A stretch of 64,000 bases of DNA from Thermoleptolyngbya sichuanensis A183 (GTDB lineage Bacteria > Cyanobacteriota > Cyanobacteriia > Elainellales > Elainellaceae). Shown in pieces: positions 48,626 through 50,714 of the stretch (position 1 is its first letter; the number at the start of each line of letters is the position of its first letter). The notes beneath the pieces are model-generated. The model had not been told where the DNA came from. It was given only the letters and a program-made list of their open reading frames with translations, and made no database searches. The position numbers were made by a program, and so were the translations under genes. The stretch is from the NCBI RefSeq assembly GCF_013177315.1, contig NZ_CP053661.1:744001-808000 (forward strand), given 5' to 3'.

Positions 48626-48907
48626 TTAGTGAACCAGGTCATTCCGAAATGCATGGACAACCATTTGCACGCGATCATTCACGCCAAACTTGTTAAAGAT
48701 ATTGCGAACGTGAACCTTTACAGTGTTTTGGCTGAGGTGTAGTCGTTTTGCAATTTCAGATGTGCGGCATCCATCGACGATAAGCTGTAGCACCTCTTGC
48801 TCACGCACCGAAAGGACGCTAGATGCTCGGCGACGGGCCTGCTTGACCGGGAGAAACGCGAGTTTTAGGTTAGGCGTTGCAAGTGGGGACGGACTGATGG
48901 GTTGCAT
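48626..48907 (-). CDS. LuxR-type HTH transcriptional regulator, no receiver
   Basis: 93 residues: a helix-turn-helix of the LuxR/NarL type (LSVREQEVLQLIVDGCRTSEIAKRLHLSQNTVKVHVRNIFNKFGVNDR) preceded by only about 30 residues and no receiver or autoinducer domain. Such single-domain regulators are common in cyanobacteria. An operator-like sequence resembling that of the neighbouring TetR gene lies upstream of its start at 49081-49104. Confidence 0.88.
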   Translation of the reverse strand: MQPISPSPLATPNLKLAFLPVKQARRRASSVLSVREQEVLQLIVDGCRTSEIAKRLHLSQNTVKVHVRNIFNKFGVNDRVQMVVHAFRNDLVH

Positions 48908-49080
48908 AGAAGAACACCTGCTCTTGGAGAAATTTTGTAGCCAATCTTTTGGACAAGGCTGACCGAAAGCAAAACCAGAATTGGGCGAGCCAGCACGGCG
49001 TTACCTTAGGAGCGCACGGGCTTTGGAAAGGGCATCAGCGGGTCGCGGTTAAGCGTGAACGAAAATTGACGAAGCGATTT

Positions 49081-49104
49081 TTTGTATATCGAACGGTCGT
49101 TATT
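49081..49104. promoter_or_regulatory. TetR-type operator candidate near LuxR gene
   Basis: TTTGTATATCGAACGGTCGTTATT, abbreviated here to its key parts TATATC...GTTATT, shares 19 of 24 bases with the operator of the TetR gene (50691-50714), in the same orientation. A partner palindrome CAATCGAACGATTG lies just to the right. It sits 178 bp upstream of the LuxR-type gene on that gene's own coding strand. Confidence 0.45.
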
Positions 49105-49595
49105 TCTAGCATCGACAATCGAACGATTGACATGCAAATCGAGACGCACAAACAAACTCCTCTGCAAGTTCTCTACAAGTTAGAGAGTGTCAGCAAGTCA
49201 TGCAAACCTCTCTAGACAGCCGTTACTGCGTACACCCATCTCGATTGTTTGCATAAGGCCCCGAAAGATCCCCCCAGGTTCTCCTTACCAAGGGGGACTT
49301 CCGATGGTAAGAGGGACTTCCGATCCCGTTCTCCCCGCTTTGGGTCACTCTGGGTTCGGCTCCGGTTCCCCCTTACTTAAGGGAGGTTAAGGGGGGAGCA
49401 AAGCATCGCCGCTCAAGCATAGAAGACTGTGTGTACACAGTAGCTAGACGGTGGGGAAAGGGGGGGTGGCCAAGATTTCCAGGAGGCGAATCAGTGTTGA
49501 TAGAAGTACGGACTGAACACGACTCTCGAACAAGTATCAGACTCTTGAGGCGCGGGCATTAACCCGGTTCCTTAACCAACTTCTTGAAAGCTTGT

Positions 49596-49725
49596 ACTTA
49601 AAAGCTCGGGCACCTCGAAAAATTCAGATCCTCTTGAGAATGGCTACGAGAAAAGGAGGGTTTCAGACTCCTAAAATTCTCAATAAGGCAACTAATCGAG
49701 GTGTCCGTTCGCACTTAAAAGCTCG
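49596..49725. ncRNA. nested palindromic element, candidate structured RNA or miniature mobile element
   Basis: Three nested perfect arms: CACCTCGA with TCGAGGTG (49611-49618, 49696-49703), TTGAGAAT with ATTCTCAA (49634-49641, 49676-49683) and AGGAG with CTCCT (49654-49658, 49668-49672). Perfect 13-bp direct repeats ACTTAAAAGCTCG flank it (49596-49608 and 49713-49725). It could be transcribed as a folded RNA, or be a miniature insertion with a 13-bp target duplication. No known RNA family recognised. Confidence 0.4.
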
Positions 49726-49946
49726 TTAACTTGAAGGTTGATTGACCCGTCGCAGTCCAGTTAGGCAAAACCCAGGCCGGAGCGATCGCCAGGACAATTT
49801 ATATCGAACAGGAGTTATAAAACAATATAGGCGCATTGTTTCAATTTGTCACTCCCTTTTTGAAAAAATTCAGACAAACCACAGGCGGCCATGTTTAGCC
49901 CCAAACTCCACCACCGCAGAAGGTTTCAAGGACGCTTGAGGGTGGC

Positions 49947-50660
49947 TTAGTTGCGCTCCTCCTGGCCCACCAGCGCGGCTGTGTCCAGTTCTTTGCTCAG
50001 CTTTTTTTCTAGGGTTTGCTTAAGGGCTTGGTCAGGGATTTCAACGGGGGGTTCAACAGGAGGTTCAACGGAGGGTTCAGTGGGGGCGGCTTGCTTGGAC
50101 GCGAGATAGGCTTGCAGCATTTCACCGAGCAGCGCGGCCTGGCGCGGGATCGACGTGCGATCGCCCACATACAATCGCCGCAGCAGCAGTCCATCTACAA
50201 AATTGCCCAAAAAGCGCACCAGTTCAATGTCATCAATGCCGAGACAGTGCATTATGCCCTGCTCTGTACCCTCCACCGAGCCTTGCAGCGTTTCGTTGCA
50301 GTTCACCTCTTCCAGGCTGAGTTGGCGGGCAAAGTCCAGCATCATCAGCGTCTGGTGCTGAAAGTATTCCTCCCGCTCCGCCAATAGCTCAAACCCCACC
50401 CTGAGACGCTCTGAAACGCTCTCCAGGTGGGCAGTGCGGGACATAAACTCGAAGGAGTCCTGTTCGCAAACAAAACCCACAAGCTGCTCGAACAGGCTTT
50501 CCTTGCTGGGAAAGTAGTGATAGAGCGTGCCCGTAGAAACCCCGACACGCTGAGCGATTTGTCGCATGGTGACTGCGTTGTAGCCCTTCTCAGCAATCAC
50601 CTCAAAGCATTTGCTCAGCAGCTCTTTGCGATATTCTTCGTGGTCAACAATCTTTGGCAT
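49947..50660 (-). CDS. TetR/AcrR family regulator
   Basis: 237 residues. The N-terminal HTH is typical: IAEKGYNAVTMRQIAQRVGVSTGTLYHYFPSKESLFEQLV (about 23-60). The remainder is the ligand-binding helical domain, ending in a proline- and valine-rich repeat (EPSVEPPVEPPVE) and an acidic coiled tail. The ligand is unknown. An imperfect 20-bp palindrome upstream (50695-50714) suggests autoregulation. Confidence 0.92.
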   Translation of the reverse strand: MPKIVDHEEYRKELLSKCFEVIAEKGYNAVTMRQIAQRVGVSTGTLYHYFPSKESLFEQLVGFVCEQDSFEFMSRTAHLESVSERLRVGFELLAEREEYFQHQTLMMLDFARQLSLEEVNCNETLQGSVEGTEQGIMHCLGIDDIELVRFLGNFVDGLLLRRLYVGDRTSIPRQAALLGEMLQAYLASKQAAPTEPSVEPPVEPPVEIPDQALKQTLEKKLSKELDTAALVGQEERN

Positions 50661-50690: not shown

Positions 50691-50714
50691 TTTGTATATC
50701 AAGCGTTCGATATA
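50691..50714. promoter_or_regulatory. TetR operator candidate, autoregulatory
   Basis: Imperfect palindrome TATATC...GATATA (50695-50714), 16 of 20 bases symmetric, with TTTG before it, about 35 bp upstream of the TetR start. The rest of the 50661-51041 interval shows no gene. Confidence 0.5.

Follow-up and report, generated by a model that had tools for sequence, protein, structure and literature searches.

A dispersed 99-bp palindromic repeat of Thermoleptolyngbya sichuanensis A183, very probably an IS5-type MITE

Among the MITEs of cyanobacteria, Nezha of Anabaena variabilis reportedly belongs to another insertion-sequence family than the element described here and makes another target duplication; the two can be likened by description, not by sequence. 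In Anabaena sp. 90, 147 complete or partial MITEs of 77-541 bp were found; one group carries three sets of inverted repeats (A, B and C), and MITEs of "type II" are those without a matching insertion sequence in the same genome (PMC3542288). These MITEs resemble the 99-bp element in being short, gene-free and mostly intergenic, with inverted-repeat ends and nested inverted repeats (PMC3542288); the comparison is one of description, and for the 99-bp element an insertion sequence sharing its ends was found. Microcystis aeruginosa PCC 7806 harbors a 187-bp MITE of the ISL3 family with the ends GGCTCTTCG and 8-bp duplications (PMC11448079). It is likewise non-autonomous, has an insertion-sequence partner recognizable by shared inverted repeats and contains a stem-loop; however, it represents another family, since its ends, its 8-bp duplication and its ISL3 affiliation all differ from those of the 99-bp element (PMC11448079). 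Similar elements have already been described in cyanobacteria, and their ends, wherever stated, differ from those found here (PMC3542288, PMC11448079). In a literature search for the end GGGCACCTCGA, no paper on cyanobacteria or transposons was found among titles and the starts of abstracts; ISfinder lay outside this search, and the element may have a prior name.

The window analyzed here is a stretch of 64,000 nucleotides from the genome of T. sichuanensis A183. An earlier note on this DNA drew attention to a nested three-arm palindrome between 13-bp direct repeats in a non-coding kilobase and offered two readings of it, namely a transcribed structured RNA or a miniature mobile element that measures about 104 bp and has duplicated 13 bp of its target. 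It was found that positions 49608-49706 are very probably one copy of a 99-bp IS5-type MITE; the features of the site are collected in Table 1.

Table 1. Features of the element and its insertion site (window coordinates)
Feature	Position	Strand	Remark
MITE, 99 bp	49608..49706	+ (family orientation)	very probable assignment; left end AAAAATTCAG, right end AATTAATCG; homology bounded here, 18 other matches in the genome
Left terminal inverted repeat GGGCACCTCGA	49608..49618		ends shared by L057, an IS5-family insertion sequence
Right terminal inverted repeat TCGAGGTGTCC	49696..49706		consensus TCGAGGTGCCC; one substitution in the window copy
Inner stem, 5' arm (CCT.TTGAGAAT)	49630..49641	+	
Inner stem, 3' arm (ATTCTCAA..AGG)	49676..49688	+	
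Left copy of 4-bp duplication, GCTC	49604..49607		
Right copy of 4-bp duplication, GTTC	49707..49710		one mismatch to the left copy
Left part of 14-bp tandem repeat (ACTTAAAAGCTCGC), probably split by the insertion	49596..49607		13-bp repeat of the earlier note extends into the element by one base
Second tandem-repeat unit ACTTAAAAGCTCG	49713..49725		
Palindrome, outer 8-bp arm CACCTCGA / TCGAGGTG	49611-49618 / 49696-49703		
Palindrome, second arm TTGAGAAT / ATTCTCAA	49634-49641 / 49676-49683		
Palindrome, third arm AGGAG / CTCCT	49654-49658 / 49668-49672 (span 49654..49672)	+	private to the window copy
13-bp direct repeats ACTTAAAAGCTCG	49596-49608 and 49713-49725		

Copies and borders of the element in its own genome

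When window positions 49560-49760 were searched against the genome (5,525,100 bases in one contig; E <= 1e-3), 19 places were recovered, the window itself included. Fifteen of the others are 90-94% identical to the query over about 87-109 bp, one is 91% identical over 89 bp, and the remaining two are 73-74% identical. The earlier note had proposed a search for dispersed copies with differing flanks, and such copies are indeed present at 18 other places; it had also considered the order of the palindrome unlikely to be due to chance, of which these 18 matching places are the strongest sign. On alignment, the copies share one common unit that starts with GGGCACCTCGA and ends with TCGAGGTGCCC, while their flanks are unrelated, as is characteristic of MITEs. 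The similarity between the two ends of the element runs on to about 17 bp as AAAAATT. No open reading frame of 60 or more amino acids is listed inside the 99 bp, which is a further property of MITEs.

Of the 18 copies with both ends, 14, including that of the window, are exactly 99 bp long, and the others measure 97, 98, 113 and 114 bp. One further copy (L026) is devoid of the left end, and a relative 107 bp in length (L053), whose ends agree with those of the copies, is located at 1582368-1582474. Between 2 and 8 positions of each 99-bp copy deviate from the consensus of these copies, and two copies at different sites (L008 and L016) are identical. The element is of an ordinary kind, with a rather constant length.

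Several copies have peculiarities of their own. In L023 and L024, the right end is lengthened by 15 or 14 bases through a short tandem duplication, and L020 (G000:C1:2279822-2279920) lies inside what is left of an older copy. The flanks of L015 and L018 contain further multi-copy repeats, with many matches in G001 for the former and in G032, G016 and G013 for the latter. A second dispersed repeat family occupies window positions 49224-49446 in the same gene-free kilobase; it has 63 matches in the genome, which are often clustered.

When the sequence was re-read, all arms of the palindrome were located exactly where the earlier note had placed them, and the outer arm proved to be longer than the 8 bp given there, extending over 11 positions (GGGCACCTCGA/TCGAGGTGTCC) with one G-T pair. 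Among the 18 two-ended copies, the outer 8-bp arm is perfect in 14 and the second arm in 13. The third arm occurs in a single one of them, where it arises from two substitutions relative to the family consensus. Hence, the nested palindrome is composed of the inverted ends of the element and an inner stem common to the family, the innermost arm being an accident of the window copy.

Target duplication and insertion site

Elements with both ends from this and other genomes were compared with respect to the duplication of target DNA. From 106 candidates, 101 elements remained after five overlapping alternates had been dropped; the loci of G043 were taken from the top of the list, so that the 101 are a non-random sample. 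An exact 4-bp duplication borders 52 of them, against 2.2 expected when the flanks of different copies are paired, and 10 of the 19 elements of the own genome (the 18 copies and L053) against 0.5 expected. With at most one mismatch allowed, the 4-bp duplication is found in 73 of the 101 elements (14.1 expected). Matches of 3 bp and of 5 bp occur twice each, controls at shifted positions gave 0-1, and none of the 101 elements has a matching 6-bp or 8-bp duplication at its ends. The target duplication is fixed at 4 bp, the sole length in excess. In the window, it is imperfect (three of four bases agree), and four of the 18 own two-ended copies (L003, L007, L018 and L025) differ at two or more of the four positions.

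On removal of one duplication copy in silico, ACTTAAAAGCTCGC is followed directly by ACTTAAAAGCTCG, giving a 14-bp tandem repeat. Most likely, the element entered this tandem repeat when it already existed; such an insertion explains the 13-bp direct repeats without any 13-bp duplication. Under the alternative proposed in the earlier note, the mobile element would span about 104 bp and have duplicated 13 bp of its target. This alternative draws on the perfect 13-bp direct repeats at both sides, but it is next to impossible: positions 49707-49712 (GTTCGC) are found in no other copy, the homology stops at 49706, and 4 bp is the only duplication length in excess. The borders of the copies and the family-wide 4-bp duplications thus rule out this version for the family; the note was right in the kind of element, whereas its borders have to be corrected to 99 bp and its duplication to 4 bp.

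Joined sites, as they would appear without the element, were built for 18 insertions (3,960 bases), of which 2,823 bases were searched; an exact empty site was not encountered, there being no junction-crossing match among those listed for 12 sites and most of a 13th in 12 genomes. Direct repeats of at least 11 bp lie within 60 bp at 8 of the 18 own sites, compared with 11.9% of 1,080 control windows (binomial p 0.0006), with a threshold that was chosen after seeing the data; a Mann-Whitney test on all values gave p 0.12. In other genomes, direct repeats accompany 12 of 76 sites and 20 of 304 controls (p 0.013), the controls including coding DNA. A preference of the element for insertion into tandem repeats is only hinted at by these counts.

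One copy, L010 (G000:C1:2910642-2910740), has no duplication; on its right side, the flank shares 96% identity with the terminal part of a HepT-like gene, and its left flank is unrelated. The gene is intact in G001, and the element marks a breakpoint of it.

The IS5-family partner and distribution of the element

At the end of a contig of G042, an end of the GGGCACCTCGA type adjoins a transposase gene, the N-terminal piece of which matches Pfam DUF772. A close relative of this piece was detected in 4 of 291 genomes of the phylum (E <= 1e-20), among them G317, which contains an intact insertion sequence of 1,249 bp (L057:704-1952) with the ends GGGCACCTCGAATAATC/GATTTTTCGAGGTGCCC and the 4-bp duplication TTAT, as seen in one intact copy only. 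Its single gene encodes a transposase of 347 amino acids, which scores 267.6 bits with NCBIfam NF033581 (IS5 family; cut-off 140 bits) and also exceeds the cut-offs of Pfam DDE_Tnp_1 and DUF772. The 99-bp element resembles this IS5 group (IS5_4), as exemplified by L057, in its GGGCACCTCGA terminal inverted repeats and in its 4-bp duplication; unlike L057, with its 1,249 bp and its transposase, it is gene-free, and only the terminal 16-22 bp are common to both. Judged from the ends and the duplication length shared with L057, the element appears to be derived from the IS5 family.

The same limit of 16-22 terminal bp was observed in a comparison of the element with seven insertion-sequence pieces; one longer match in that comparison was a neighboring copy of the element inside the slice. 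The element is therefore not a simple deletion derivative of the insertion sequences found, as its interior is unmatched beyond the terminal bases.

A mechanism may be proposed on this basis. An IS5-family DDE transposase, supplied in trans, would bind the GGGCACCTCGA ends and cut the element out or copy it. The element would then be joined to AT-rich target DNA at a cut staggered by 4 bp, and the filling of the gaps would generate the 4-bp duplication. The window copy would have been inserted in this manner in the 14-bp tandem repeat, in the spacer between the TetR-type and the LuxR-type gene. In the own genome, the transposase has one relative (67748-68407), which contains a stop, is truncated and lies behind an end GGGAACCTCGAAAAATT, beside a 99-bp copy. 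Since this relative is broken, the copies in the genome are probably immobile now, unless a source of transposase comes from outside.

Of 23 genomes tested, 5 contain a relative of the L057 transposase (E <= 1e-15), and of the 20 tested genomes that bear the element, only G000, G317 and G327 hold one. G043, with 138 matches to the element, has none at this threshold.

With the DNA query, matches were obtained in 9 of 60 relatives, the weakest of these at the ends only. A covariance model was built from 17 copies; it matched 14 of 386 genomes of the phylum at E <= 1e-4, under stricter filters and with at most 10 candidates scored per genome, and 19 of 22 genomes picked for earlier matches. The 138 matches of G043 represent at least 110 distinct places among the matches listed, and the 23 matches of G327 at least 17; the model can match both strands of one place (8 of 27 in one case), and numbers of matches are not numbers of copies. 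A scan of named genomes for the exact pattern yielded four stretches, three in cyanobacterial assemblies (Leptolyngbyaceae, Synechococcaceae and Synechococcus) and one in Nitrosomonas sp. Nm34. The last of these (L049 1175-1334), outside the cyanobacteria, is a 160-bp element with the same ends. The element was not matched in collections of plasmids and phages (E <= 1e-3), nor was its exact pattern in viral contigs. At loci L111-L137 of G043, either orientation of the central hairpin can be found (GGCTTCGCC and GGCGAAGCC), which gives the impression of a flipped loop.

The regulator locus and the interior of the element

The element lies between a LuxR-type and a TetR-type regulator gene, both on the minus strand, and the earlier note considered that it might be transcribed as a structured RNA, either a regulatory RNA or an attenuator. 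Such an attenuator or small RNA would regulate one of the two genes. Besides the position, the folding of the 99-nt stretch would agree with this: as RNA it reaches -31.3 kcal/mol (z -3.35), better than all of 200 dinucleotide shuffles, and as DNA it folds better than 199 of 200; the inner stem, moreover, has pairs changed on both sides across genera. However, when 17 bases are removed from each end of the window copy, 67 of 200 shuffles fold as well as the remaining 65 nt (z -0.25). As this trimmed inner part folds like its shuffles, the excess in folding resides in the outer arms.

The same sequence is, furthermore, dispersed at unrelated loci with 4-bp duplications. An Rfam scan of the window gave nothing at gathering score, its one sub-threshold match lying outside the element, and in positions 48900-50000 no terminator-like site and one promoter-like site were detected, neither above the level of shuffles. 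In G001, the one same-genus genome searched, the LuxR side and the TetR side share a contig and keep their order (identities of 78% and 76%), the stretch between them lacks the element, and neither the DNA query nor the covariance model revealed a copy of the element in this genome; the spacer at the locus is too diverged for an empty site to be defined at base level. Hence, the idea of a regulatory RNA of the TetR/LuxR pair is not supported. An RNA specific to this locus was rejected on the grounds of the dispersed copies, the absence of an Rfam match and the scan of 48900-50000, and regulation of either gene by a transcribed structure here is highly improbable. The location of the MITE between two regulator genes is a matter of chance.

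Two other features of the spacer were observed. To the right of the element, downstream of the TetR-type gene, a non-coding block of 75 bp (49795-49868) is 92% identical in G001, where the rest of the spacer has diverged; it is possibly a regulatory site. The sequence TATCGAACGGTCG occurs upstream of the LuxR-type gene, with a near-copy (two mismatches) upstream of the TetR-type gene (49087-49099 and 50700-50712), and a similar palindrome, CATATCGACCGTTCGATAT, is present in G001. Two matches stand against 0.85 expected, which is a weak signal; these sites might be operators.

The inner stem varies between genomes. The letters of TTGAGAAT/ATTCTCAA are retained in 13 of the 18 own copies and in none of 83 others, the other genomes having other pairs. 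In an alignment of 46 copies, reduced from 62 rows by dropping 15 opposite-strand matches and the truncated L026, changes affect both sides of all eight inner-stem pairs, with 72% of the cells pairing; in an alignment of 17 copies from 16 genomes, this applies to six of eight pairs, with 67.6% of the cells pairing. Both results exceed shuffled and slid controls, though both alignments were fitted to the structure. When the outer pairs are counted as well, the covariation score of the whole structure in the 46 copies is higher than in each of 500 shuffles and in every slid version. In an unfitted alignment (A1), the score is likewise above all shuffles, despite both-sided changes in only 2 of 11 inner pairs, which is no more than in shuffles (336 of 500). 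The earlier note would have withdrawn its readings if there were neither compensatory pairs nor a transcript nor a second copy; second copies and two-sided changes of the inner stem both exist.

These observations raise the question of whether selection acts on the internal stem and the length themselves, rather than the interior being passive filler; the stem might, for example, form a hairpin in the DNA while the element is transposed or replicated, or one in RNA that renders insertions in transcripts harmless. In this direction point the both-sided changes, the lengths (of the 101 elements, 62 measure exactly 99 bp and 85 fall within 96-100 bp, with a 99-position search model that favors 99) and the folding of the inner part in 30 representatives: in seven of them, no more than 10 of 200 shuffles fold as well, with 1.5 expected, but in the other 23, the window copy included, the inner part is not clearly better than shuffles. 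In quasi-palindrome mutation, one arm is copied from the other during replication, and both-sided changes can result without selection. Selection on the interior is, in view of the fitted alignments, the behavior of A1 and such arm-to-arm copying, doubtful. The middle of the element (positions 51-62, TCAatGgTTTCAGcC-like) is slightly more conserved than the adjoining arms (1.16 versus 0.79-0.95 bits). A constraint on the interior is a real but unproven hint, which copying between the arms could mimic.

With the assignment as a MITE, a palindrome of the non-coding kilobase that had lacked an explanation can be annotated as a repeat, and its other copies need not pass for regulatory RNAs or attenuators. 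It would be a bolder and rather unlikely proposition that one old lineage of IS5-ended elements of about 99 bp has persisted and been amplified across many cyanobacterial families, mostly in genomes without a detected relative of its transposase, and has preserved its length, a TTTCAGCC-like motif in the center and the covariation of the inner stem. If this were true, the interior would be functional and not filler; it might serve as a DNA hairpin during transposition, for example, or form an RNA hairpin that does no harm in transcripts. Should the wider pattern of constant length, covarying interior and many copies in genomes lacking a transposase relative be borne out, the family would lend itself to testing whether movement of a bacterial MITE depends on its interior as well or on the ends alone.
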